Shown here piece by piece: positions 79 through 14,758 of a stretch of 14,758 nt of DNA. Source of the DNA: Thermodesulfatator sp. (GTDB lineage Bacteria; Desulfobacterota; Thermodesulfobacteria; Thermodesulfobacteriales; Thermodesulfobacteriaceae); the NCBI GenBank assembly GCA_027036915.1, contig JALWCD010000254.1:2721-17478 (forward strand), in the 5' to 3' direction. The position numbers and the translations under genes are program-made. Every line of letters begins with the position of its first letter. The first letter of the stretch is position 1. Under the pieces are notes generated by a model that was not told the DNA's origin, searched no databases, and saw nothing but the letters and a program-made list of their open reading frames with translations.

Positions 79-858
79 TTATTCTTCACATTCTTTTCCC
101 AGACTATAAAAGAAGTGCCCGATGATACCCGCGGCGCTGGCGCCAAAAAGTACCCATCCCAGAGTCCGAACCGCATCCAGAGCCTCGATCTGCCCTCTGG
201 CCGCTCCGGGTCTGAGGAGATAGTCCTTAAGCTGGGCATAAGGCCCCACCGTTACCCAGTGCAGATACCCCGTAGCTTCACTTACTTTTTGGGCCCCGTA
301 GACCAGGAACTTTTCTCCCAGCCTTTTTTCGTAAACCTCTGCCCGCTTTTGGGCCTCAGCCAGAACCTCCTCCCGGGAACCGAAATAGATGGCTCGGGCC
401 ACGCAGGCCTCCACACAGGCCGGAGGAAGTCCGGCCTCTATCCGGTCGTAACACATGAAGCACTTGTAAGTCTTTCCCATCCGGGGATTGAATTGCGGCA
501 CATCGTAAGGGCAGGCTTCTATACAGGCCCGGCATCCAATACACCTCTCCTCATGTATGACCACCACCCCATAAGGTTTGACTTCTATGGCTCCTGCCGG
601 ACATCTCCGGGCACAGGGAGCATTTTCACAATGCATACAGTGATGGACATAGGAAACCGACCGTCCGGGGTAATCCCCTAGATACCGGAATACCGGAAAG
701 ATATAACGAAGCTCTGGCCGGGCTTCCGCCAGGACCTTCTCCGTATTTCCCCGTCCGTCTCTCGTCAGACGGGCCCGATTCTCTATTCCACACTGCACCG
801 AACAGGCATAACACCTTATACAGGCCTGCATATCGTAAAGCATGCTTACCTTGGTCAT
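79..858 (-). CDS. Four-cluster [4Fe-4S] electron-transfer subunit of a molybdoenzyme
   Basis: This 259-aa protein should relay electrons between the catalytic molybdopterin subunit and a membrane anchor. Sixteen cysteines form four ferredoxin-like groups: residues 13/16/19/23, 74/77/82/86, 106/109/112/116 and 133/136/148/152. That is the usual layout of DmsB/PhsB/FdnH-type beta subunits. Near the C-terminus, about residues 233-253, lies a single hydrophobic helix (GWVLFGASAAGIIGHFF). This is like formate dehydrogenase N beta and unlike soluble DmsB or PsrB, and it suggests direct anchoring beside a cytochrome b. The ATG lies 2 bp after the stop of the catalytic gene, and its AGGAGGG ribosome binding site is inside that gene's end, so the two are translationally coupled. 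Function as an Fe-S relay is secure; the substrate of the complex is not. Confidence 0.93.
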   Translation of the reverse strand: MTKVSMLYDMQACIRCYACSVQCGIENRARLTRDGRGNTEKVLAEARPELRYIFPVFRYLGDYPGRSVSYVHHCMHCENAPCARRCPAGAIEVKPYGVVVIHEERCIGCRACIEACPYDVPQFNPRMGKTYKCFMCYDRIEAGLPPACVEACVARAIYFGSREEVLAEAQKRAEVYEKRLGEKFLVYGAQKVSEATGYLHWVTVGPYAQLKDYLLRPGAARGQIEALDAVRTLGWVLFGASAAGIIGHFFYSLGKECEE

Positions 859-860
859 GG

Positions 861-3395
861 CTAAACCCTCCTGACTTTGATGATGACATCCTGGGTGGCA
901 TGTCCCCCATGGATGGGAGCAAAATGAAGTTTAGAGAAATGATTTATGTTCACTCCGTACTCGGGTAGAAAAGCCAAAAATTTCTTGAGCCTGGGGAAGG
1001 CCCCGGGGGCCACCCCGTAGTAACTGAAAAGTGCATCCGGATGCACGAGCGGCGTTACCCAGACCCTGGCGCGGGCCCTGATCTCCGGATTGTGAGCCGG
1101 GTAAACCTCCACTATATCTCCATCCGAGATCCCCAGTTTCCGGGCCCTTTCCGGATGAATCCAGAGACGATCCACACCGGTCTGTTCCCAGATTTCCAGC
1201 AAGATAGGATTGTTCCGGGTCTGCCCCCCGGTAAAAGAGTTGAGAGGGGAAAATCCGGTACAGAGGATAAATTCATCTTCACCCAACTTCCCGTTCTTTT
1301 CTTTCCACCAGAAGGGGGGAGACCACTGAGGAAGAGGATTCACATCTTCAGCGTAGGGATGATTCTGAGCTTTAAGTTTTCTATAGACCTTAAGATAGGT
1401 AAGACTGAAGATCTCAACCTCATGGGTTAAAGTCTTATTTTTAATCTTGTAATTCTTTTTGCCTGCATGCCAGGCCCCCTGGCGCTTGAGGTTCTCCAGC
1501 GTAAGTCCAGGATACTTCCGATCCAGCCCCTCGAGCTGTTTACGCCAGCCATATTCCCAGCCCCCGCGAACGAAATCCCCGAAATATTTCTCAAACTCTT
1601 CCGGGGAAAGAACCCGCCTGGCCAGCTCCACCATAACCCAATCTCCCGGTCGGGCCTCAAAAGGAGGCTCTATCGCCTTCATATTCATGGCTACCGTGGG
1701 AATGGCCTGTTTAAACTTGGTGTGGAGAGCCTCGTTTCTTTCGGGAAACATGGTGTCAGGGAGCACAATATCGGCATAAAGACAACTCTCATCCATAAAG
1801 GGACTCATACAAACTATGAGTTCCAGCTGATCCAGAAACTTGAGCATCTCCACCGAACCACCCGAACCACCGATGAAATTCTGACCCATGGCAAAAATGA
1901 CCGACGGTTTATAAGGCTCTCCGGTACGCAGGGCTTCGATTATGAACCGTCGCCCGGCCTTAGGAATGAGAAAAGGATACCCCTTCTTTGTCTGGTAATA
2001 TTTGGTAATCTGGATCGCCTTGGGTTTGGGAGGCTTGGGTAAAATGGAATGTAACTTTATTTTCTTTATTCCGGCCACCCCGCCCTTCTGTTCCCAGCAG
2101 CCAAGGAGAGTGTTCACCAGGCCAACGCAGTAGAATTGTCTCAAGGAATTAGCGAACCGTTCCGAATACCAGCCTGTATGCACGAAGACCTGCGGTTTGT
2201 TTTTCATAAGCTCTTCGGCCACCGCCTCTATCTCGGGAGCCGGAATGGTGGTAATCTTTTCCGCCCACTGAGGGGTATACTTCTCAAGCGCTCGCACTAT
2301 AGCCTCAAAGGCTGGCACAACTTTCTTTCCGTCAACCTCATATTCCCCACGCAAAGCCGGTCTCCGGGCCTCAGCCTTGAAAACCGCCCGTCCCTGAGCT
2401 TCGTCCCAGACCAGATACTTCAAAGTCTTTTTTTTCTTTTTCTTCCCGCCCTTCTCGACTTCTTTTTCCTCTATTACCGCTCCATAAGGTTCCAGAGTAT
2501 CCGGATCGATAAGCATACAGGCGTTGGTCTTTTTGATCAGGTAATCCGCATCGTATCCCTGCTTTTTGACGATTACATGAGCGAGGGCCAGGTGAAAGGC
2601 CGGATCCGTCCCTGGACGAATGGGCAACCACTTACGCCCCACACCTTCGGCCGATTCGTTGGGGAATCTTACATCCACCGCCACCAGACGAACTCCGTTG
2701 CGACGACCTTCCCCAAAAAGAGTCCCAAACTGATAAACACAAAGGCCCCCTCCGGGATTTCGCATGGCCAGGACGCCGAACCTGGCGTTGGGATAGTCCA
2801 TCCAGACCGCGCTCGGAGTGATAGGACGCCCGAAGAAGGCCCCTAGCCCCCAATCTTTACCCGCGGCGTGACAGGTATCGGCATAGGTCACAATGTTCGG
2901 AGTGCCATAAATCTTCCAGAAAGGTTTGTCTATTCCCGCCGCGGAAGTAAAACGCGGGAGATATACCACCCTTTCCGGTTCGCCTTTTTCCCGATACTTT
3001 TTAAGGACCGCGGCTATACGATCCAGAGCCTCTTCCCAGGTAATCCGTTTAAACTTTCCTTCGCCCCTTTTCCCTACCCGCAAAAGAGGATATTTCAGCC
3101 GATCGGGGTTGTATACGGCCGCCGGGGTCGAACGACTCCGACCACAGATCCCGGCATAGGGAAGATACGGGTTGGCCTCCATTTTTATTAGCTTTCCATC
3201 CTTCACAATCCCCATGGCAGGGCACTGCTGCCCACACATCCGACAACGCAGGGGAACTCTCTTTTCCACACCCAGATCTACCGGAGTGGGGGCTTTTTGG
3301 GAGGGGGCGATCCGATCACCCAATTTGACAAAGGGAGAAAAAGTAGCAATACCACTCAACTTCAGAAATTTGCGCCTTGAAATTTTTTTCTCCAT
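861..3395 (-). CDS. Tat-exported molybdopterin oxidoreductase, catalytic subunit (PsrA/PhsA-like group)
   Basis: This 844-aa protein begins with a twin-arginine signal (SRRKFLKLSG, residues 6-15), so it should be exported folded. Cys51, Cys54, Cys58 and Cys84 bind the N-terminal [4Fe-4S] cluster. Cys175 in YADTCHAAGKD is the expected molybdenum or tungsten ligand; it is Cys, not selenocysteine or Ser, as in polysulfide, thiosulfate, tetrathionate and arsenate reductases and some formate dehydrogenases. WLPIRPGTDPAFHLALAHVI (256-275) and the C-terminal dinucleotide-binding domain are typical of the DMSO reductase superfamily. Start: ATG with AGGGGG six bases upstream. It leads an operon with the Fe-S subunit and a probable cytochrome b, downstream of a TTGACA promoter. 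An odd Lys-rich run (about 316-325) sits in an insertion. A respiratory sulfur-compound or formate enzyme is plausible; sequence alone does not fix the substrate. Confidence 0.93.
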   Translation of the reverse strand: MEKKISRRKFLKLSGIATFSPFVKLGDRIAPSQKAPTPVDLGVEKRVPLRCRMCGQQCPAMGIVKDGKLIKMEANPYLPYAGICGRSRSTPAAVYNPDRLKYPLLRVGKRGEGKFKRITWEEALDRIAAVLKKYREKGEPERVVYLPRFTSAAGIDKPFWKIYGTPNIVTYADTCHAAGKDWGLGAFFGRPITPSAVWMDYPNARFGVLAMRNPGGGLCVYQFGTLFGEGRRNGVRLVAVDVRFPNESAEGVGRKWLPIRPGTDPAFHLALAHVIVKKQGYDADYLIKKTNACMLIDPDTLEPYGAVIEEKEVEKGGKKKKKKTLKYLVWDEAQGRAVFKAEARRPALRGEYEVDGKKVVPAFEAIVRALEKYTPQWAEKITTIPAPEIEAVAEELMKNKPQVFVHTGWYSERFANSLRQFYCVGLVNTLLGCWEQKGGVAGIKKIKLHSILPKPPKPKAIQITKYYQTKKGYPFLIPKAGRRFIIEALRTGEPYKPSVIFAMGQNFIGGSGGSVEMLKFLDQLELIVCMSPFMDESCLYADIVLPDTMFPERNEALHTKFKQAIPTVAMNMKAIEPPFEARPGDWVMVELARRVLSPEEFEKYFGDFVRGGWEYGWRKQLEGLDRKYPGLTLENLKRQGAWHAGKKNYKIKNKTLTHEVEIFSLTYLKVYRKLKAQNHPYAEDVNPLPQWSPPFWWKEKNGKLGEDEFILCTGFSPLNSFTGGQTRNNPILLEIWEQTGVDRLWIHPERARKLGISDGDIVEVYPAHNPEIRARARVWVTPLVHPDALFSYYGVAPGAFPRLKKFLAFLPEYGVNINHFSKLHFAPIHGGHATQDVIIKVRRV

Positions 3396-6991: not shown

Positions 6992-7738
6992 ATGCGCCTC
7001 GAAACCCTGGAAAAGGAGTTCAAAAATTTCAAAGTCCGGGTCATGGATGAACACGAGCGGCTCAAAGAGGAGTTGAAGCTCCTCCGGGATATCGCCTGGA
7101 ACCTGGTGAGGGCCGTAGAAGACACGCGGGAGGAGTTCCAGGCCGAAATGAAGGAATTGCGGGAAGAGTTCCGGGCTGAGATGAAAGAGATGCGGGAGGA
7201 ATTCCAGGCTGAAATGAAGGAAATGCGAGAGGAGTTTCAGGCCGAAATGAAAGAATTGCGGGAAGAGTTCCAGGCTGAAATGAAGGAAATGCGGAAAAGA
7301 TGGGGAGATCTTGCCCGGAGCCTGGGAACGGTAACGGAGAACATCTTTGCCCCCGGAGTGCCTTATCTGATCCAGAAGCTCGGATGCCGGGTGATAAAGC
7401 GCATGCTCGATGTCGAATACGAAAAGGAAGGACGAACCAATCAGTACGACGCCATAGTGGTGGCAAAGCCCCCTCAGGGGAAGGAAATCGTTTTCGTGGC
7501 CGAGGTGAAGACCAAGTTAAAGGCGGAACACTTCCAGGAACTGAAAGAAAAACTGGAAAATCTTCTGGAGTACGAACCAGAATATGCCACAAAAAGGATA
7601 GTTCCCATCCTGGCGGCCTTCAAGATTCCCTCCGATCTCATCCGTATGGCCAACAAGCGGGGAGTGCTCCTCGTTCACATGGGCGGTGAATATTTAGAAC
7701 CCCTCAATCCCGAAGTGCTCTCCCTAAGCGAAGGGTAA
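6992..7738 (+). CDS. Coiled-coil protein with hendecad repeats and a PD-(D/E)XK nuclease-like domain
   Basis: This 248-aa protein has a helical N-terminus (1-45), five near-identical 11-residue repeats of the form REEFQAEMKEL/M (46-100) and an alpha/beta domain (about 105-248). In the last, Asp153 (QYDAIVV) and Glu171-Val-Lys173 (VAEVKTK) match the D...ExK core of the PD-(D/E)XK superfamily. Similar coiled-coil plus nuclease-like hypothetical proteins (the DUF3782-like type) are common in thermophiles and cyanobacteria, with no settled function. No methylase or helicase gene lies nearby. The start is the ATG with AAAGGAG 7 bases upstream. The 3' end overlaps that of the convergent DUF362 gene by 15 bp. 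The repeats suggest an extended rod that sets spacing between subunits. The superfamily call rests on motif and order of secondary structure. Confidence 0.7.
   Translation: MRLETLEKEFKNFKVRVMDEHERLKEELKLLRDIAWNLVRAVEDTREEFQAEMKELREEFRAEMKEMREEFQAEMKEMREEFQAEMKELREEFQAEMKEMRKRWGDLARSLGTVTENIFAPGVPYLIQKLGCRVIKRMLDVEYEKEGRTNQYDAIVVAKPPQGKEIVFVAEVKTKLKAEHFQELKEKLENLLEYEPEYATKRIVPILAAFKIPSDLIRMANKRGVLLVHMGGEYLEPLNPEVLSLSEG
7127..7291 (+). repeat. Five tandem 33-bp repeats inside the coiled-coil gene
   Basis: Five contiguous 33-bp units begin at 7127, 7160, 7193, 7226 and 7259, each opening with CGG or CGA and encoding the same 11 residues with small changes. Differences are mostly at third codon positions, plus Gln-to-Arg in unit 2 and Leu/Met exchange at the last position (L, M, M, L, M). 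The unit is a whole number of codons, so gain or loss of copies would keep the frame. A sixth unit begins (RKRW) and then diverges. Confidence 0.95.
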
Positions 7739-8647
7739 GCGCAGAAAAAGTCTCTTTAGCATACCCCGAAGCAGGCGCAGGGGGTGGAAGGTTACCGGGG
7801 AGAGCCTTTCCGGAAGACGAAAATCCGAAAGGTCGGGAAGGTCGGCGGGCAGGGCCACCTCTTCCGGCCGAGCCCCGAAAAGACGCATCCTTAAAGCTGT
7901 TTCCCAAAGAGGGACCCTTTCCGGCGAAAGGCCCAAAGCCAGGTAAAGCGCGGTATCCAGGGCCACGGCGTTTTTGGACGCGAGAAGAAAACCCAGTGCC
8001 CTGGGTCGGCCTCCGGTGGGCCCCCGGCCCTCCATGGCCACGATGGCATCCAGGATATTGAGCCCCACCGGAAGAAGCTCCGCCACCTCAAGGATCATGC
8101 GAAAAAAGAGATCCCCTCTCTCCCCCAGGCGGGCGTGAAGCAGGGGTTTCTGGAGCCCCACCACGCAGCCGAAAAGGTTCTTGGCCGCCGCGGTAACCAG
8201 GAGCTGATCGTGGGCCTTAAGTCGCGGAAGATTCACGACGAGGTCCGCGCAGAGGGCCTCCCGGGGAAGCTTCACCGTGACCCCGCAGGCAAGCCTTACG
8301 GGGCGTGAAGGCGTGAAACGCACGATGCGCACCGGAAGATCCGCGAGGGCCCGGGTTAAGCCCGCGGCCCGGGCCACGGCGTAAGTGGTGCCGAAGGCCG
8401 GGGAGTCCCCCACCATGACCTCGGCCCCCCTTTCAAGGAGCCCTTCGCAGACCGCCCGCACCACCGCGGGATGGGTGCAGGAAAGTCCGGCGTTCCTCGG
8501 GGCCACCAGGTTGGGCTTGACCAGAATCCTGACCCCGGACGGAACCGTAAAGGAAAGCCCCGCCAGAAGGCGCTCCACAGCCTCCCTCACCTCCTCCGGA
8601 CGATAGGAGGCGCACGAGCACATGCTTACGAAGGCCCTCGAAACCAT
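7724..8647 (-). CDS. DUF362 family protein
   Basis: This 307-aa protein shows the conserved blocks of DUF362: ILVKPNLVAP (41-50), VGDSPAFG (79-86), NLPRLKAH (139-146), AKNLFGCVVG (155-164) and LDAIVAMEGRGPTGG (199-213). The family is widespread in anaerobes and often carries extra ferredoxin domains; this version has none, though a Cys-x-Cys (10 and 12) lies near the N-terminus. Its reaction is not established. The C-terminus is basic and hydrophobic (MLKRLFLRLPFA). The ATG at 8647 follows AAAAAGGATAGC, a fair ribosome binding site; the open frame continues to 8962 only as the shadow of the response regulator. It diverges from that regulator with 15 bp between start codons, and both start codons lie in one inverted repeat. 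Regulation by the neighbouring two-component system is therefore conceivable. Confidence 0.85.
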   Translation of the reverse strand: MVSRAFVSMCSCASYRPEEVREAVERLLAGLSFTVPSGVRILVKPNLVAPRNAGLSCTHPAVVRAVCEGLLERGAEVMVGDSPAFGTTYAVARAAGLTRALADLPVRIVRFTPSRPVRLACGVTVKLPREALCADLVVNLPRLKAHDQLLVTAAAKNLFGCVVGLQKPLLHARLGERGDLFFRMILEVAELLPVGLNILDAIVAMEGRGPTGGRPRALGFLLASKNAVALDTALYLALGLSPERVPLWETALRMRLFGARPEEVALPADLPDLSDFRLPERLSPVTFHPLRLLRGMLKRLFLRLPFA

Positions 8648-8666
8648 GCTATCCTTTTTAGCATGG
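8644..8666. repeat. Perfect inverted repeat containing both divergent start codons
   Basis: CCATGCTA (8644-8651) and TAGCATGG (8659-8666) are exact complements separated by TCCTTTT. The left arm contains the start codon of the minus-strand DUF362 gene and the right arm contains the ATG of the plus-strand response regulator. The symmetry may partly follow from two ATGs facing each other, but five further paired bases are not needed for that. It could be an operator that controls both genes. The centre also supplies the AAGGA ribosome binding site on the minus strand. Confidence 0.6.
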
Positions 8667-9976
8667 AATCCCTCAACATTCTTGTGGTGGAAGACGAAAA
8701 GGTCCATCGGGAGCTCCTGCGAAAGACCCTTGAGGAGGAGGGGCACCGGGTCTGGAGCGTCCCCAGTGCCGAAAAAGCCCTGCCCGTACTGGCTAAAGAG
8801 GAGGTGGAGGTGGCGGTGGTCGATGTTCGGCTTCCGGGGATGAGCGGACTTGAACTTCTCGAACGGATAAAGCGGGAGCGGCCCGAGGTGGAGGTCATCG
8901 TGATCACGGCCTTCGGCGAGATCGAGGATGCGGTTTCGGCCATCAAGGCCGGGGCCTTTCACTACCTGGTCAAGCCCTATGAGCCGGAGGTGCTTCTCAA
9001 CCTGATCCGGCGGTGCGGGGAACTAGTGCGTCTGAGGAGGGCTCCGGCCGGCTCCGGCCCGCTGGTTTACCGCTCCCGGGCCATGAGGGAGGTCCTGCGT
9101 CAGGCCGAGATCTTCGCCCGCACCGAGGCGCCGGTCCTCATCCTGGGGGAATCAGGCGTAGGCAAGGAGCTTCTGGCCCGCTATCTCCATGAGCGGAGCG
9201 GCCGGAAAGGCCCCTTCATAGCGGTAAACTGTGCGGCCATACCGGAGAATATCTTCGAGGCCGAGCTTTTCGGCTACGAACGCGGGGCCTTCACCGGGGC
9301 CGAAGCCGCGAGGCCCGGCCTTATTGAGGAGGCCGAAAGCGGCACGCTGTTTCTGGACGAGATAGGGGAGATGCCCCTGACCCTCCAGGGCAAGCTCCTG
9401 CGTTTTCTTCAGGAGGGAGAGTTCCGGCGCCTGGGGAGTAACCGGATCCGTAAAAGCCGGGCCCGCATCCTAGCCGCTACCAACGAGGACCTGGAGAAAG
9501 CGATCTCGGAAAAAAGATTTCGCGAGGACCTCTATTTCAGATTAAATGTCCTCACCCTGAGGATACCGCCTCTCAGGGAAAGGCCCGAGGACATCCTGCC
9601 CCTTGCGACCCACTTCCTTGAAAAGTTCAACCGGAAATACGGCAGGAGGGTGGCGCTCTCCCCGGAAGCCGCGCGCCGGCTCACGGAATACCATTTTCCG
9701 GGCAATGTCCGGGAACTGGAAAACCTCCTCCACCGGGCGGTCCTGGTGTGCGAAAAGGAGATCCGACCCGGGGACCTGGGGCTTGAAGAGCCCGAAAAAG
9801 GTCTTTCCATAGGTCTTTCCGCCGGGAGAACCCTCCCCGAGATCGTGGCGGAGGTGGAACGCACCCTCATCCGGGAGGCCCTGGAGCGAACGGGCTATGT
9901 CCAGACCCGGGCCGCGGAGCTTCTCGGTATAGATGAAAAATCCCTGCGTTACAAGCGCAAGAAATATGGCCTCTAG
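8663..9976 (+). CDS. NtrC-family sigma-54-dependent response regulator
   Basis: This 437-aa regulator has three domains. The receiver (about 5-120) has the phosphoacceptor Asp54, the acidic pair Glu10-Asp11, Thr82 and Lys104. The AAA+ domain (about 133-370) has Walker A GESGVGKE (162-169), the sigma-54 contact loop GAFTGA (208-213) and Walker B LFLDE (229-233). A Fis-type helix-turn-helix ends the protein (about 412-437, AAELLGIDEKSLRYK). Intact GAFTGA and Walker motifs mean it should remodel sigma-54 holoenzyme. The ATG at 8663 gives a normal receiver start; no Shine-Dalgarno precedes it, and a possible -10 (TATCCT, 8650-8655) would start RNA near the ATG. The kinase gene overlaps its end. 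The near-consensus -24/-12 promoter at 11221 is the obvious target. The ligand class is not evident. Confidence 0.96.
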   Translation: MESLNILVVEDEKVHRELLRKTLEEEGHRVWSVPSAEKALPVLAKEEVEVAVVDVRLPGMSGLELLERIKRERPEVEVIVITAFGEIEDAVSAIKAGAFHYLVKPYEPEVLLNLIRRCGELVRLRRAPAGSGPLVYRSRAMREVLRQAEIFARTEAPVLILGESGVGKELLARYLHERSGRKGPFIAVNCAAIPENIFEAELFGYERGAFTGAEAARPGLIEEAESGTLFLDEIGEMPLTLQGKLLRFLQEGEFRRLGSNRIRKSRARILAATNEDLEKAISEKRFREDLYFRLNVLTLRIPPLRERPEDILPLATHFLEKFNRKYGRRVALSPEAARRLTEYHFPGNVRELENLLHRAVLVCEKEIRPGDLGLEEPEKGLSIGLSAGRTLPEIVAEVERTLIREALERTGYVQTRAAELLGIDEKSLRYKRKKYGL

Positions 9977-11111
9977 ACGCTATTTACTTCTCTTTCTGGC
10001 TGTTCTCTGGAGCCTCGCCCTGGGTTTCCTCTACAACTTCCATCGGCTGAAAAAGGAATGGGAGAGATTCTTCCATCTCACCCTGGAGGAGGAAAAACGG
10101 AGATTATATTCGGCTCTCAAAGCCACCCTCACGGCCGGGGGAGATCCGGTTGAAACCCTTTCGGAGTACCTTGAAGGTTCGCGACTTCTCAAAGGGGCGG
10201 CCCTTATCCTTTCGGGAAGGACCATCATAGTGCCGGGCTCGGACATACCCCCTAAAAGCCTGGTCTATACGCTGGAGCTTGAACCCTTCAGGTTTCAACT
10301 CTATTTCTCCGGCGAAACCTTTTATGAAATCAAACGCCATCTTTATCTCGAACTGGCCCTGTGGTTCCTTCTCAACCTGGCGGGCCTTGGGGTTACCCTG
10401 TGGCTCCTCAGAGGTTATTACGAAAGCCGTCTGAATCTGGCCCGGGAAAAAGCCGAAACCGAACGTCTGAGGAGTGTGTCCCTGGCCATAGCCTCCGTGC
10501 TCCATGAGGTGAAGAACACCTTAAACAACCTCAATTTTGCGGTCTTTCGCCTGAAAAAGAAGTGTGGTTTCGAGGAGATACGCATCCTCGAGGAGGAAAT
10601 CCGTCGCCTCACCCTTTATCTGGAGGAAGTCTCCGATCTGAGAAAACCCCTGACCTTAAAACTTACCAGGCTCAGGATCGAGGAGTTGACCGGAGAAGTC
10701 CTCGAAGAATTTTCCGAAAGGATCAAGGATCTCGGGGTGGAGACGGAAGTCAATCTGGCTCCGGCCGAGCTTCCGGTGGATGCGGAAAGAATGCGGGTGG
10801 TCCTTCGTAACCTCATTCGGAACGCCCTGGAGGCTCTGGCGGAGGTTCCGCCTCCCCGGAAGCTCAAACTTAGCGGAGAACTTGAAGGACCATTCTATCG
10901 CCTGGAGGTGGCTGATTCCGCGGGTCTTCTTCCCGGAGACGCCCAGCTTTTCCAGCCTTACAAAAGCCGCAAACCGGGAGGCTTCGGCCTGGGCCTTTTC
11001 AATGTCAAACGCATCCTCGAGGCCCATGGAGGAGAGATCGAAGCCGGAGTACATTCGGGATTTACCGTCTTCACCCTGAAGCTTCCCCTCGGAAAACCTT
11101 CCGAAAAGTAA
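9966..11111 (+). CDS. Membrane-bound sensor histidine kinase, partner of the NtrC-type regulator
   Basis: This 381-aa kinase has a membrane helix at about 6-24, a short extracytoplasmic sensor region (about 27-127), a second helix (about 128-148), then a cytoplasmic kinase core. His180 in LHEVKNTLNNLNF is the phosphorylated residue. The ATP-binding part has an N box (RNLIRNALEAL, 281-291), an F-box-like LFQPYKS (328-334) and a G2 box (GGFGLGLFNVKRIL, 338-351). The G1 box is unusual: DSAGLLP (317-323) stands where DxGxG is expected. The ATG at 9966 overlaps the regulator's end by 11 bp and has no strong ribosome binding site, so coupled translation is likely; an in-frame ATG at 9933 would add 11 residues. 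The periplasmic sensor has no fold I recognise. The pair resembles ZraSR/AtoSC-like systems in layout. Confidence 0.9.
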   Translation: MASRRYLLLFLAVLWSLALGFLYNFHRLKKEWERFFHLTLEEEKRRLYSALKATLTAGGDPVETLSEYLEGSRLLKGAALILSGRTIIVPGSDIPPKSLVYTLELEPFRFQLYFSGETFYEIKRHLYLELALWFLLNLAGLGVTLWLLRGYYESRLNLAREKAETERLRSVSLAIASVLHEVKNTLNNLNFAVFRLKKKCGFEEIRILEEEIRRLTLYLEEVSDLRKPLTLKLTRLRIEELTGEVLEEFSERIKDLGVETEVNLAPAELPVDAERMRVVLRNLIRNALEALAEVPPPRKLKLSGELEGPFYRLEVADSAGLLPGDAQLFQPYKSRKPGGFGLGLFNVKRILEAHGGEIEAGVHSGFTVFTLKLPLGKPSEK

Positions 11112-11116
11112 GCCCT

Positions 11117-11138
11117 GTTTCGGAAAAATTTCCGAAAC
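11117..11138. promoter_or_regulatory. Inverted repeat, probable upstream activator site for the NtrC-type regulator
   Basis: GTTTCGGAAA (11117-11126) and TTTCCGAAAC (11129-11138) are exact complements around a 2-bp centre. The centre lies about 120 bp upstream of the start expected from the sigma-54 promoter at 11221, the usual distance for an enhancer bound by a dimeric NtrC-type activator. A half-like copy, TTCCGAAAA, lies at 11099-11107 in the end of the kinase gene. It is a poor terminator: the loop is too short and no T run follows. Confidence 0.6.
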
Positions 11139-11220
11139 GCAAAAACCGGCCACCGCGCCCTGATCCCCCGCAACCCGCAGGTCCCAAGAGATTTCACCCC
11201 GGAGGCAAAGTCGTAAATCA

Positions 11221-11236
11221 TGGCATACCATTTGCT
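11221..11236 (+). promoter_or_regulatory. Sigma-54 (-24/-12) promoter of the downstream operon
   Basis: TGGCATACCATTTGCT matches the sigma-54 consensus TGGCACR-N4-TTGCW at every defined position but one (T for C at the sixth base), with the GG and GC pairs at the required spacing. Transcription should start near 11247. An AGGAGGTG ribosome binding site at 11261-11268 and the ATG at 11275 follow at fitting distances. The operon sits directly after the genes for a sigma-54 activator and its kinase. Confidence 0.75.
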
Positions 11237-11274
11237 CCGTATTGAAATATGAATTTCGAAAGGAGGTGTGGATT

Positions 11275-11967
11275 ATGAAAAAAATTGTGGGGTTAAGTGT
11301 GATTCTTCTCGTCTTCTGGCTGGGGACGGCTCTAGGGAAAAACCCTCTTCCCTTAAGGGAAATAGAGGGGACGGTGAAGGAGATTCGGACAGAAAAAGCC
11401 TCTCCCAGGGCCAGGTTAGGCTTTATGACCGCGGTCCTTTCCACCGGGAAGGGCGAGGTGAAGGTGCGGCTTTATCCCGAATGGTGGAGGCTCAAACCTC
11501 CCTTTACCGTAGGCCATCGTATCAGGGTCAGGGGCTGGATTCCGCCGCGGACGCTTTTTAAAGGGCAGGCGGTTCTGGTGGCCGCCGAGATCCGGAACCT
11601 GGACACCGGTGAGGTTCTGGTTCTTCGGGAGGGTCCGGGGCGCCCTCGCTGGATTTCGGGGCTTAAACCGCAAACCTTTTCCGGAGAAATCGTGGCCCGA
11701 AGGATAAGCCCCGGTCTCGGACGCCCGCAGATCAAGTGGCTGGTAATTGAGGTCAAAAACGAACAGGGGGAGATCCACGCCTTCAGGATTTCCCCCCTCT
11801 GGCTGAATGATTATCCCGAACTCCGGCCCGGAATGAGGGTGAAAATCACGGCCTGGAGGCCTCCCTTCTGGAGGGCGCGCAACATTCAGGATTACATGGC
11901 CTGTCGGGTGGTTCTCCCTGAAAGCGGGAAAACCCTGAACCTTCGGAAATGTCCGACCACGAAATAA
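11275..11967 (+). CDS. Exported protein with a duplicated beta (OB-like) domain
   Basis: This 230-aa protein starts with a signal peptide (MKKIVGLSVILLVFWLGTALG) likely cut near residue 21, so it should act in the periplasm. The rest is two similar units of about 90 residues (30-119 and 135-224). Each runs: a short strand (EGTVKEI / SGEIVAR), a longer strand ending in charged residues, a P-x-W or P-L-W turn (YPEWWRLKPPFTVGHRIRVRGW / SPLWLNDYPELRPG), and WIPP or WRPP followed by a final strand. The pattern GxRxxVxxW recalls OB-fold beta barrels. I do not recognise a named family. It is the first gene after the sigma-54 promoter, with a strong AGGAGGTG site, and lies 11 bp before a membrane cytochrome-like gene. 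It has two cysteines (210 and 226), which could form a disulfide. A metal- or peptide-binding role is only a guess. Confidence 0.7.
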   Translation: MKKIVGLSVILLVFWLGTALGKNPLPLREIEGTVKEIRTEKASPRARLGFMTAVLSTGKGEVKVRLYPEWWRLKPPFTVGHRIRVRGWIPPRTLFKGQAVLVAAEIRNLDTGEVLVLREGPGRPRWISGLKPQTFSGEIVARRISPGLGRPQIKWLVIEVKNEQGEIHAFRISPLWLNDYPELRPGMRVKITAWRPPFWRARNIQDYMACRVVLPESGKTLNLRKCPTTK

Positions 11968-11978
11968 GGAGGAGCGCT

Positions 11979-12782
11979 ATGCGAAAGTGGATCAGCCCTT
12001 CCCTTTTCTACGCCACAGTCATCGTCATTCTCACCGGCCTGGTGCTTTACATCATGCCGCCGGGTCGGATGGCTTACTGGACCGACTGGCGCCTTCTGGG
12101 ACTGGACAAGGACCAATGGGAGGCCCTCCACATCCTTTTCGGTCTCTTGATGATGTTCCTGGCCTTCTGGCACCTTTACCTCAACTGGAAACCCTTCAAA
12201 CTTTATCTCGGTTCACTCAAGGCTCCGGGAAAAGCCTTTGTTTCCGTAACCCTGGCCGCCCTGATTCTCGCGTCCCTGGCCGTAAAGGATCTTCCTCCGG
12301 CCGGCTGGCTCATGGCCCTGAGAGCCCGCTTAAAGGCCTCCTGGGGCAAACCCTCCGTCCCTCCGCCCATACCCCATGCGGAGTTGCTGAGCCTTGAAGC
12401 CCTTCTAAAAAGGGAAAAAATACCCGCGGAAAAAGCCCTTCCCTTTCTTCAAAAACACGGCATAAAAGTCCCCTCCCTCCGGCTGAATCTTAAAGAGCTG
12501 GCCCGGATAAATCGCACCACCCCGGCCGATCTCTACGGGCTGCTCCTGAAATTGAAGGGAAACAGGAGGTTTCCTTCCTCCATTTCGCGTCCCGGTCGCA
12601 GGACTTTAGCTGAGGTTTGCCGGCTCCTGGAACTGGAACCCCGGGTTTGTCGGAAGATCCTTGAAAAACACGGAATAAAGCCCGACTGGGAGGTTCCCCT
12701 TCGGGAACTGGCCTTTGCCCATGGGACAACTCCTCGCGAAATAGTAGAATGGCTAAAAGCCGCCAGGGAGGCCCGAAAATGA
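11979..12782 (+). CDS. DUF4405-like membrane protein with duplicated helical C-terminal domain
   Basis: This 267-aa protein has membrane helices at about 8-28, 50-70 and 86-104. His51 (ALHILFG) and His65 (FWHLYLNW) lie in or near the second helix, resembling the heme-coordinating histidines of DUF4405/cytochrome b-like proteins. The soluble tail has two similar units, about 138-190 and 209-260: each begins with a helix, then KHGIK (159-163 and 230-234), then a helix ending RTTPADLY or GTTPREIV. Tails of this kind follow DUF4405 domains in other anaerobes. AAGGAGGAG gives a strong start at 11979. It probably sits in the membrane with the exported OB-like protein outside, and its TGA overlaps the ATG of the PqqD-like gene (ATGA). 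Heme binding is inferred, and the electron partner is unknown. Confidence 0.7.
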   Translation: MRKWISPSLFYATVIVILTGLVLYIMPPGRMAYWTDWRLLGLDKDQWEALHILFGLLMMFLAFWHLYLNWKPFKLYLGSLKAPGKAFVSVTLAALILASLAVKDLPPAGWLMALRARLKASWGKPSVPPPIPHAELLSLEALLKREKIPAEKALPFLQKHGIKVPSLRLNLKELARINRTTPADLYGLLLKLKGNRRFPSSISRPGRRTLAEVCRLLELEPRVCRKILEKHGIKPDWEVPLRELAFAHGTTPREIVEWLKAAREARK

Positions 12783-13033
12783 AGCTGAATCGCCTGGCCA
12801 TAAGTGAAGAGGGTTTCATCTTCGACCCCGAGACCGGAAACAGCTACACGGTGAATGAAACCGGCCTTCTGATCCTGAAAAAACTTCGGGAAGGGCTCGG
12901 CCCGGAGGAGATTGCGAAGGCCATGAGCGAGGAATACGAGGTTTCCCGGGAGGAGGCCCTGAGGGACGTCCAGGATTTCCTGGAGACGCTCGCGAGATTC
13001 GGTCTGTGGGAGGAAAAAGCATGGTTAAGGTAG
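12779..13033 (+). CDS. PqqD-like protein (RiPP recognition element fold)
   Basis: This 84-aa protein matches PqqD in length and pattern: a small beta region ending GFIFDPETGNSYTVNETGLL (12-31), followed by three helices (LILKKLREG, PEEIAKAMSEEYEVS, REEALRDVQDFLETLARFGL). The FDPETGNSYTVNETG stretch followed by a helix is the family signature. PqqD and related RRE domains are chaperones that bind the leader part of a peptide and bring it to a modifying enzyme. The start overlaps the previous stop (ATGA), and its end overlaps the ATP-grasp gene by 13 bp, so all three are translationally coupled. No PQQ genes (pqqA, C, E) are visible here, so PQQ synthesis is not implied. A stand-alone RRE next to an ATP-grasp ligase suggests delivery of a peptide or tagged protein to that ligase. 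Confidence 0.85.
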   Translation: MKLNRLAISEEGFIFDPETGNSYTVNETGLLILKKLREGLGPEEIAKAMSEEYEVSREEALRDVQDFLETLARFGLWEEKAWLR

Positions 13034-14049
13034 CCGTCTCCGGCATCAACGCCGTGGACAATCCGGGCCCGGGGCTCGGCATCATCAAGGGGCTGCGGGA
13101 GGGAAAGACCCCGGTCTCGGTGGTGGGGCTGGCCTACGACGCCATGGAACCGGGAATCTACCTCACGGACCTCATCGAGCGGGCCTACCTCCTGCCCTAC
13201 CCTTCCGAAGGCGAGGTCCCCTTCCTGAACCGCCTCCTCTACATCAAGGAAAGGGAAGGGCTTGAGGTGGTTATCCCGGCCCTTGATGCCGAACTTCCGC
13301 TTTTCATAGACCTTGAGCCGCGGCTTTCCGCTTATGGTCTCAGGACCTTTCTTCCCACGCAAAAACAGTTCAGATTGCGGGCCAAGGATCGCCTGTCCAC
13401 CGTGGCCGAGGCCATAGGGATAAAGACGCCCGAAACACTTGCGGTCACCTCTTATGAGGAATTTACGCGGGCCCTCTCCCGGCTCAGGTTTCCCGTAATG
13501 GTCAAAGGACTCTTCTATCGGGCCCTTAAGGCCTACACCGAGGCCGAGGCCCGGCAGCACTTTCAGGCCATCGCGGCCGAGTGGGGCTATCCCGTGATCG
13601 TGCAGGAGGTGGTGGAAGGCGAGGAGATGAATGTGGTGGGGGTGGGCGACGGAGAGGGCGGCCACTTCGGACTCATGGCCATCAAGAAGCTCTGGATCAC
13701 TTCCCTGGGTAAGATCTGGACCGGGGTGACGGTGACCCATCCGGGGCTTCTCACCGCGGCCGAAAATTTCGTAAAACACTTCCGCTGGCGGGGGGCTTTT
13801 GAGCTTGAAACCATCGTCTCGGGAGACGAGATTTACCTCATAGAGATCAATCCCCGCTTTCCGGCCTGGATCTATTTCGCGGTGGGGGTAGGGATCAACC
13901 TTCCCGAAAGGCTGCTTAAGGCCGCCCTGGGAGAGGAGCCCGAGAGGGACTGGGACTATCCGGCCGGAAAACTCTACATCCGCTTCACGGACGATCTGGT
14001 AACGGACCTCGAAGTCTTCCAGCACATGGTTACAAGGGGGGAGAGATGA
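13021..14049 (+). CDS. ATP-grasp carboxylate-amine ligase-like protein
   Basis: This 342-aa protein has an N-terminal Rossmann-like pre-ATP-grasp domain (1-115, VKVAVSGINAV, VVIPALDAELPL). A central ATP-grasp domain follows: Lys123-Asp124, Lys162 in VMVKG, the hinge VQEVVEGEE (194-202), Glu261/Glu263 in FELET, and the metal ligands Glu275 and Asn277 in LIEINPRF. It looks closest to the PylC/CarB-like branch, whose members activate a carboxylate as acyl phosphate and join it to an amine; the exact substrates are not predictable. The ATG at 13021 follows GGGAGG at 13008-13013 and lies inside the end of the PqqD-like gene. Its TGA overlaps the next ATG. With an RRE-like gene upstream and a PLP decarboxylase downstream, it is a candidate for attaching an amino acid or amine to a peptide or protein. 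Confidence 0.88.
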   Translation: MVKVAVSGINAVDNPGPGLGIIKGLREGKTPVSVVGLAYDAMEPGIYLTDLIERAYLLPYPSEGEVPFLNRLLYIKEREGLEVVIPALDAELPLFIDLEPRLSAYGLRTFLPTQKQFRLRAKDRLSTVAEAIGIKTPETLAVTSYEEFTRALSRLRFPVMVKGLFYRALKAYTEAEARQHFQAIAAEWGYPVIVQEVVEGEEMNVVGVGDGEGGHFGLMAIKKLWITSLGKIWTGVTVTHPGLLTAAENFVKHFRWRGAFELETIVSGDEIYLIEINPRFPAWIYFAVGVGINLPERLLKAALGEEPERDWDYPAGKLYIRFTDDLVTDLEVFQHMVTRGER

Positions 14050-14758
14050 GAAAGCCCTATCAGAAACCCACCATCCTGAAGCTCCAGGTGGGCTTTATGC
14101 GGGATAAGAAAAGCGGCCTTTCGCAAATGGTACGCCGGGACATAGACGGCGTTCCGGTAAGGGAGCTTGCCGAAAGATTCGGCTCGCCCCTTTTCGTCTT
14201 TTCCGAAAGGAGGCTCCGGGAACAGTTCCGTTATCTGAAAAGGCTCTTTGAAAGCCATTACCCCCGGGTGGAATTCAGCTGGTCCTACAAGACCAACTAT
14301 CTGGATGCCGTCTGCCGCATTTTCCACCAGGAAGGGGCCACGGCGGAGGTGGTCTCCGATTTTGAATACGAAAAGGCCCGGAGACTGGGAATTACCGGGG
14401 ATAAGATCGTTTTCAACGGTCCTTACAAGCCGAAGGAGATTCTACGGCGGGCGGTCCTTGAGGGGGCCCGCATCAATGTGGATTCCCTGGACGAAATCCT
14501 GGATCTCGAGGAGATCGCCCGGGAAACGGGAGAGAAGCTGCGGATAGGGCTTCGGGTAAACATGGATACCGGTATTTACCCCCGGTGGGACCGTTTCGGT
14601 TTCAATCTCGAAAGCGGGGAGGTCCTGAATGTGGCCCGTAGAATCGCCGCCGGGGGGCGGCTCGAGGTGGTGGGACTTCACTGCCACCAGGGGACCTTTA
14701 TCCTTGAGCCCGAGGCTTACGGACGGGCCGCGGAAAAACTGGTTCAACTGGCCCGAAA
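14046..14758 (+). CDS. Diaminopimelate-decarboxylase-like PLP enzyme with an N-terminal YxxP extension (partial, 3' end missing)
   Basis: The first 237 residues are present, and the frame is open to the window edge. From residue 32 (DIDGVPVRELAERFGSPLFVFSE) it follows fold type III decarboxylases of the LysA/ornithine-decarboxylase group. Lys82 in SWSYKTNYLDAV is the PLP lysine, DRFGFNLESG (182-191) matches the KFG block, and GLHCHQGTF (210-218) stands where LysA usually has HxHIGS. The relatives remove the carboxylate of a D- or L-amino acid or polyamine precursor. Before the domain is an unusual extension of about 30 residues, MRKPYQKPTILKLQVGFM, with Tyr5-x-x-Pro8. The ATG overlaps the ATP-grasp TGA and follows AGGGGGGAG, so this start is well supported. 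The YxxP pattern resembles leader peptides bound by RRE domains, and an RRE-like gene lies two genes upstream. A housekeeping lysA is less likely here. Confidence 0.85.
   Translation, partial: MRKPYQKPTILKLQVGFMRDKKSGLSQMVRRDIDGVPVRELAERFGSPLFVFSERRLREQFRYLKRLFESHYPRVEFSWSYKTNYLDAVCRIFHQEGATAEVVSDFEYEKARRLGITGDKIVFNGPYKPKEILRRAVLEGARINVDSLDEILDLEEIARETGEKLRIGLRVNMDTGIYPRWDRFGFNLESGEVLNVARRIAAGGRLEVVGLHCHQGTFILEPEAYGRAAEKLVQLAR

Follow-up and report, generated by a model that had tools for sequence, protein, structure and literature searches.

Results

The window analysed here is a stretch of 14,758 nucleotides from a Thermodesulfatator sp. genome, taken from a contig of 17478 bases (G000:C254:2721-17478), and its last position, 14758, is the contig end. 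At this end lie three genes on the + strand. The first (12779..13033) encodes a discrete RiPP (ribosomally synthesized and post-translationally modified peptide) recognition element (RRE) of the PqqD fold with 84 amino acids (PF05402, E 4.9e-17, 62.4 bits, cut-off 23.4). The second (13021..14049) encodes an ATP-grasp ligase of 342 amino acids similar to carbamoyl-phosphate synthetase (CPS) and PurD, which scores above the cut-offs of both PF15632 and PF02655 and retains the catalytic residues. The third (14046..14758) provides the first 237 codons of a pyridoxal phosphate (PLP)-dependent decarboxylase (DC) related to LysA and FslC (Orn_Arg_deC_N), whose C-terminal part is found, together with later genes, on contig C76 (L139) of the same genome. 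The DC carries a leader-like N-terminal tag that in all likelihood represents a conserved recognition sequence read by the RRE.

The tag comprises DC residues 1-24 (MRKPYQKPTILKLQVGFMRDKKSG; 14046..14117, +); it is conserved among homologues and unstructured in a model of homologue L041. Its YxxPxI core (Y5, P8, I10; 14058..14075, +) fits the motif that discrete lasso RREs recognise, [Y/W]xxPx[L/V/I/F/A] (PMC13381572). A second motif, GFMRDKKSG in the window DC, follows at 14091..14117 (+) and has the family form G-x-x-[NS]-K-[FYH]-G. The RRE and ligase genes overlap by 13 bases and the ligase and DC genes by 4 bases, and the start of the RRE gene overlaps the stop of the preceding gene (11949-12782); these overlaps leave no intervening space in which a small precursor gene could fit. 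An earlier note on this DNA had described PqqD-like, ATP-grasp and LysA-like genes overlapping end to end, and both the coordinates and the family profiles agree with this. It had also seen about 30 extra residues with PYQKPTIL on the LysA-like enzyme, where the lysA profile match indeed begins only at residue 31, and no small precursor gene in the window, which holds for the overlapping genes. The G-x-M that it expected as a conserved motif behind YxxP did not hold up, the alignment giving the family form above instead. Reading beyond 14758 for a precursor, as the earlier note had suggested, revealed none just downstream of the DC on contig C76, and the same was true of 16 relatives; genes for a transporter-peptidase fusion, a barrel-like protein and a tetratricopeptide repeat (TPR) protein follow, with overlapping or abutting starts. 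When both are aligned to G003, a close relative, the window ends at position 3340 and C76 begins at 3355, with about 14 bases between them; from there on C76 contains, by likeness to relatives, a urea-transporter/M23 peptidase fusion (UT-M23), a few unread bases and then the barrel-like protein.

We compared the tag across 96 DC loci, consisting of 16 loci from the same class and the best 80 of at least 580 related loci in a species-level genome collection. Removal of four identical contigs left 92 non-duplicate loci, some of them near relatives (L064/L065, L132/L134, L133/L135), which span about 20 phylum-level names as labelled in the records, many of these being unchecked labels of metagenome-assembled genomes (MAGs). 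The RRE, ligase and DC genes are arranged in identical order in the 16 class relatives, and nearly all of them share the DC N-terminal pattern [MV]-[KR]-x-x-Y-[QE]-K-P-x-I-x-K-[LV]-x-x-G. A lax pattern search found [YW]xxP in 96/96 loci, and all 92 of the 92 non-duplicate loci have a [Y/W]xxPx[hydrophobic] tag (86 parsed strictly by script; L097, L105, L118, L132, L134, L136 and the mis-matched L082 by eye). The first tag residue is Tyr in 88 loci and Trp in four (L109, L124, L125, L131), and position +5 is hydrophobic in all 92. The second motif contains K-x-[GASTQ] in 84/86 loci by script, and in 91/92 once L082 is corrected and the six loci read by eye are added, L093 being the lone locus without it. 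In 85 parsed rows the enzyme core starts 42 to 45 residues after the Tyr, and the 86th row is the mis-matched L082. When a full-length DC was searched against 5.8 billion proteins, at least 8000 matches were obtained, and YxxP lies no more than 25 residues from the start in 118 of the best 120; of the two exceptions, P0105 begins just behind YxxP and P0113 has YxxP at residue 25. An AlphaFold model of the L041 DC (446 amino acids, 53 sequences) has a mean predicted local distance difference test (pLDDT) score of 84.8, with 251/446 residues at or above 90. Residues 6-13 and 15-24 score below 50, as do the core stretches 338-344 and 370-372, and no secondary structure is present before residue 22. 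In this single-chain model the tag is predicted to be flexible.

The tag appears to be largely confined to this enzyme. A 26-column tag profile recovered, by construction, the 17 DCs in 41 class genomes (E 7e-14 to 2.7e-6) and gave no non-DC match below E 0.006 in these genomes; the match at this value, a short tagged reading frame in G035, runs antisense to a real gene and was put down to chance, and the other matches have E >=0.096. Canonical lysA is found above cut-off in 39/41 class genomes, and the profile search detected no tag on canonical LysA in the 41. Both the conservation of YxxP in DC homologues with the same neighbours (92/92) and its absence from canonical LysA in the 41 class genomes, which answer checks put forward in the earlier note, were thus borne out. 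Searching 50 genomes of other groups with a 41-column profile at E 0.01 yielded 48 matches, all of them DC: 47 DC-length frames and a 97-amino acid frame that is a second DC copy ended by the contig end. The sensitivity of this profile is limited, the DC being overlooked in 3/50 genomes along with the free peptide of L092 (see below). Among 246 short candidates from a large protein set, the tag profile matched 16, of which 15 run into DC sequence and were rejected as fragments of DC; the 16th, P0256 (33 amino acids), could not be judged. Small open reading frames (ORFs) with [YW]x[KR]Px[IVLM] number 27 in the 92 loci, of which 26 were discarded by eye and the L092 gene was kept; likewise, inspection of the 16 loci with room between ligase and DC found a tagged small ORF in L092 only. 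Neither the overlapping genes of the window and its nearest relatives nor the tag searches thus contain a separate precursor, precursors with other leaders elsewhere in the genome not having been sought.

The exception, L092, comes from a Melioribacteraceae MAG. Here a gene for 64 amino acids (L092:246-437, +) is inserted between ligase and DC with a 4-base overlap with each, and its product bears its own YxxPxI and SKYG tag, the sole such case in 92 loci. A search of 25 other genomes with this peptide returned nothing convincing, the best match (E 0.0017) falling in sequence interrupted by stops. In L092 a free peptide has either acquired a copy of the tag or is of the kind from which the fused form arose.

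A variant locus, L055 (G059:C301), encodes a TPR protein, an RRE with a Cys-rich N-terminal extension, two consecutive ATP-grasp proteins and a tagged DC (YEKPTIVRNLLKSVNKYAG) whose second motif is NKYAG. Of the best 120 homologues of this DC (P0121-P0240), 102 extend 35 residues or more ahead of the core. A script located [Y/W]xxP in 94 of these 102, or 93 after dropping P0192, where the motif lies in another place and the protein apparently starts behind the expected one. Five of the 8 others seemingly start just behind the motif (P0154, P0164, P0166, P0180, P0182), and P0170, P0201 and P0226 lack it. This wider LysA-like family is mostly tagged, with source names including Scalindua, Omnitrophica, Armatimonadetes and Planctomycetes, and its second motifs include KHAG, NKYIGR, DKQW and MNTFAG. 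The second motif is without Lys in P0186, P0195, P0206, P0216, P0185 and P0197, and the idea of an obligatory Lys modification in this motif is weakened by such members. A search of viral contigs gave one short match, and the wider-family member P0193 had no match at E 1e-40 among plasmids.

The closest solved chains to the window RRE are the lasso RREs TfuB1 (6jx3) and TbiB1 (5v1u/5v1v). In LppB, the leader-binding pocket includes N33, V35, C39, I56, Y60, V63, V67, D70, F74, M78 and L83, with D70 bonding the leader Tyr and N33 fixing the kink at the Pro, according to PMC13381572. The window RRE, a PF05402 member, retains the corresponding Asn26, Asp63 and Phe67 of the YxxP pocket. At the gap-free spacing of LppB N33, D70 and F74, we found Asn in 80, Asp in 85 and Phe in 84 of 87 RRE rows (the window plus 86 loci, four duplicates included); the Asp is replaced by Gly in L093 and by Glu in L109. 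From these residues we infer that the RRE can hold a YxxP motif. Lasso cluster features (a B2 protease, an asparagine-synthetase-like cyclase) and a kinase are absent from the recurrent neighbours of the 92 loci.

RRE, ligase and DC are closely linked. At E 1e-30 the DC occurs in 17/41 class genomes, and when 60 relatives were ranked by their RRE matches, the top 17 matches came from those 17 genomes. An RRE is found upstream of the DC in 86/96 loci (4 duplicates), and in 9 of the remaining 10 the contig begins 82 to 1186 bases before the DC. In the tenth, L068 from an Aquificota MAG, RRE, ligase and tagged DC are located on three contigs (L068, L157, L158) among seemingly unrelated neighbours; RRE and ligase of this genome are 64% and 62% identical to those of the window, and the DC tag is retained. 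In a survey of the phylum (247 genomes, completeness of at least 90% requested), the DC was detected at E 1e-90 in 13 genomes, and the 14 best RRE matches (E <=1.4e-16; next 8.7e-14) are confined to exactly these 13. One of them, G115 (L160, L161), has two operon copies, the second ended by the contig end, and G108 has RRE and ligase at a contig end. In a further 41 genomes of the phylum the RRE-like matches are weaker (E 8.7e-14 at best), and the DC was not detected at E 1e-90.

We also asked whether tag divergence follows that of the partner proteins, using pairwise BLOSUM distances for the 61 loci with all parts and, as controls, 62 windows of the DC core, each left out in turn. With the DC core removed, tag and RRE distances correlate with a partial r of 0.261, a value reached by 4/62 control windows. 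The partial r is 0.264 for the ligase (7/62 control windows as high) and 0.039 for UT-M23 (39/62). Leaving out Thermosulfurimonas-type loci (54 left) gave 0.364 for RRE (0/62), 0.393 for ligase (3/62) and 0.043 for UT-M23 (42/62). It is suggestive only, but tag divergence seems to track RRE and ligase, not UT-M23.

The top solved match of the DC by sequence is the N-citrylornithine decarboxylase FigC/FslC (7kh2; E 6.9e-54, about 30% identity). Chains of the same entry are the four best Foldseek matches of the L041 model (E 1.8e-36, TM 0.81/0.87), with BtrK at rank 32. The DC has the fold of alanine-racemase-fold PLP decarboxylases together with their Lys, His and Cys: K82, H214 and C370, which we take to be the catalytic residues of this enzyme group, are invariant in 53 aligned DCs. 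NG-P-x-K and C-M-x-x-D are invariant in the same alignment; NGPYK and C-M-x-x-D also occur in 7kh2, but not in the diaminopimelate (DAP) decarboxylase 1tuf. The 16 class DCs score 209 to 233 bits with the LysA profile TIGR01048 (126 bits for the truncated window copy), below its cut-off of 297.9, and three members tested with the N-citrylornithine decarboxylase profile NF041039 reach 204, 221 and 216 bits, below its cut-off of 500; for L041 the two scores are 230 and 204 bits. The genome of the window, G000, has a canonical lysA on contig C53 (537 bits), and 16 of the 17 class genomes with a DC, G000 included, have such a separate gene. With a separate lysA in the genome and scores under cut-off, we ruled out that the DC is the housekeeping LysA. 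In PMC7857480, FigC groups with SbnH, AcsE, MccE and BtrK, decarboxylases whose substrates are citryl conjugates, microcin C in a modified form or a glutamylated carrier; the same clade also contains DAP decarboxylases.

The ligase is an ATP-grasp protein with an invariant K, E..E and E-x-N-P-R in 71 aligned homologues. We assume that the Lys binds ATP and that E..E and E-x-N bind Mg. Its predicted model has a pLDDT of 91.6, and because the best solved matches of its profile are 2pn1 and carbamoyl-phosphate synthetase, amide, carbamoyl and carboxyl chemistry would all be possible. ORF clusters in the 92 loci contain DC in 85, UT-M23 in 82, ligase in 71, RRE in 61, TPR in 60 and the barrel-like protein in 39 cases, all lower bounds since members are lost to contig ends and frame choice. 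The UT-M23 fusion scores 209.8 bits with PF03253 (cut-off 25) and 104.3 bits with the urea-transporter equivalog TIGR03441, far under the cut-off of 274.6, and urea therefore need not be the substrate. In its M23 half, H351, D360, H435, H468 and H470 are invariant in 79 aligned members (L041:9584-11680, its homologues and L139) and presumably are the catalytic residues, with the eight residues between H351 and D360 seeming long against the usual spacing. The barrel-like protein (290 amino acids) has no family match, and its barrel reading rests on its look; the TPR protein has a signal-like start as judged by eye.

Directly 5' of the RRE gene (8471-12782) are genes for a response regulator and a histidine kinase (both by eye), an OB-fold protein and a DUF4405 membrane protein. 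Their relatives recur in only 5 to 8 of the 92 loci, and we thus regard them as local neighbours rather than core members. Further upstream, 6992-7738 contains near-identical EEFRAEMKEM-like repeats followed by a possible nuclease-like half (a guess by eye), and 79-3395 on the minus strand contains a gene pair for an Fe-S subunit and a Tat-type molybdopterin oxidoreductase (named by eye).

Discussion

We propose, with a probability of roughly 0.6, that the RRE docks the tagged DC to the ligase, that the ligase makes an amino-acid conjugate and that the DC decarboxylates this conjugate. Based on motif and pocket, the discrete PqqD-fold RRE would bind Y5-x-x-P8-x-I10 of the DC as lasso RREs bind leaders, and would thereby keep the DC beside the ATP-grasp ligase encoded between them; the second tag motif probably contacts the ligase. 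By analogy with their families, the ligase would link an amino acid with a carboxylate, and the DC would strip the alpha-carboxyl from the conjugate, as FigC/FslC, SbnH, MccE and BtrK do with theirs. The product may then be passed to an envelope module formed by the conserved neighbours, namely the urea-transporter-fold/M23 fusion, the barrel-like, putative outer-membrane protein and the TPR protein.

Several observations weigh against this proposal. The free tagged peptide of L092 suggests that peptides could be what the RRE serves in certain lineages. The pocket residues are typical of peptide-serving RREs and would argue for YxxP competence, not for the DC as the partner, and recognition of W/Y/LxxP is common to several RiPP classes, according to PMC12710340. 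LppB V63 has no hydrophobic counterpart at equal spacing. In L093 the tag persists although neither the Asp of the pocket nor the Lys of the second motif is present, and a Trp tag does not switch cleanly with loss of the Asp, L109 having Glu while L124 and L125 keep Asp. The ligase gene of L054 reads in two frames. The substrate and product that we propose are guesses; the closest solved relatives of the ligase are CPS- and carboxylase-like. Finally, the covariation is modest, and phylogeny could inflate the signal.

Docking is nevertheless our best reading, and a self-carrier fusion is the bolder one. In the latter, which we consider unlikely, precursor and enzyme are fused and the tag is both leader and acceptor: the RRE would present the tag, the ligase would load an amino acid onto it (at the NK[FYH]G Lys or elsewhere), and the attached DC would decarboxylate the tethered group, much like BtrI/BtrJ/BtrK with a built-in carrier. 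The preservation of a second motif beyond YxxP in 91/92 loci, the free tagged peptide gene of L092 and the M23 peptidase domain in the operon are consistent with such a fusion, as is the fact that BtrK acts on a glutamylated carrier protein and MccE on a modified peptide, both enzymes belonging to the clade of 7kh2 according to PMC7857480. The Lys, however, is missing in L093 and in wider-family members with MNTFAG, MNTFSG, MNTYSG or WNTLAP, and a self-carrying enzyme would presumably need to be reset or remade at each turn. The idea becomes quite doubtful when extended to an ancient cross-phylum RiPP-like pathway, with a precursor joined to the enzyme that tailors it, an RRE presenting this leader-acceptor to the ligase, a self-carrier decarboxylating the loaded group and export of the product via a dedicated UT-M23/barrel/TPR envelope machine.

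Very unlikely, in our view, is that the tag is a mere structural or regulatory arm of the DC, such as a dimer arm or an active-site lid, its leader likeness and the adjacent RRE being incidental and the RRE serving an unlinked peptide. An arm of this kind would fit a tag that is nearly always on the DC, and dimer contacts cannot be revealed by our single-chain model. It is, however, hard to reconcile with a [Y/W]xxPx[hydrophobic] sequence that occurs in every one of the 92 loci and has as its neighbour an RRE whose pocket is of the YxxP type, with LysA lacking the tag in our searches, and with a tag that covaries with RRE and ligase more than most DC windows do; the 50-genome tag-profile search at E 0.01 also returned DCs only (3/50 DCs and the L092 peptide being missed). 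An ordinary diaminopimelate decarboxylase gene next to unrelated genes can practically be dismissed, for while lysA profiles match and sources that name the homologues say diaminopimelate decarboxylase or alanine racemase, a canonical lysA is separate in 16/17 class DC genomes, the DC scores under both the lysA and FslC cut-offs, it shares NGPYK and C-M-x-x-D with FslC 7kh2 and not with 1tuf, and the operon is conserved.

The earlier note could not name a described system of this type, and our searches of full-text papers, with subscription journals mostly outside their coverage, found no description of an RRE/ATP-grasp/tagged-DC system. The text of PMC7470986 contains none of the terms decarboxylase, ATP-grasp, urea, LysA and alanine racemase. 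The DC family is widespread, at least 580 loci related to it occurring in the collection of species-level genomes, and its members go by the names diaminopimelate decarboxylase or alanine racemase wherever a source names them. If our proposal is true, a conserved recognition sequence on a full-size enzyme would show that RRE and leader can also connect proteins like a plug and its socket, and orphan PqqD-like proteins that lack a precursor gene would become testable enzyme assemblies.

RREs are known for delivering precursor peptides to modifying enzymes. The discrete RREs of lasso and LPP systems (TfuB1, TbiB1, FusB1, LppB, PbaB1) have in common with our system the PqqD fold, the [Y/W]xxPx[L/V/I/F/A] motif and the pocket Asp, Phe and Asn, but there the motif resides on a precursor peptide, whereas here it is found on an enzyme of 446 amino acids. 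Borosins also unite a peptide signal and a catalytic domain within a single protein; these are self-modifying methyltransferases, with the signal at the other protein end compared with the DC. FigC/FslC (7kh2) is closest to the DC in sequence and fold and shares NGPYK and C-M-x-x-D, but its system has a nonribosomal peptide synthetase-independent siderophore (NIS) synthetase where the DC system has an ATP-grasp ligase and a tag. The butirosin enzyme BtrJ is an ATP-grasp ligase. According to PMC7857480, BtrI/BtrJ/BtrK employ a LysA-fold decarboxylase on a carrier-bound amino acid; if the DC system has any substitute for the carrier protein, it would be RRE and tag, and BtrK is just the 32nd fold match. 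By the features tested, the system does not belong to the lasso class and lacks a separate precursor such as standard RiPP pathways have. To judge from the conserved sequences, it may instead work like an RRE-leader pair that has been set between enzymes.

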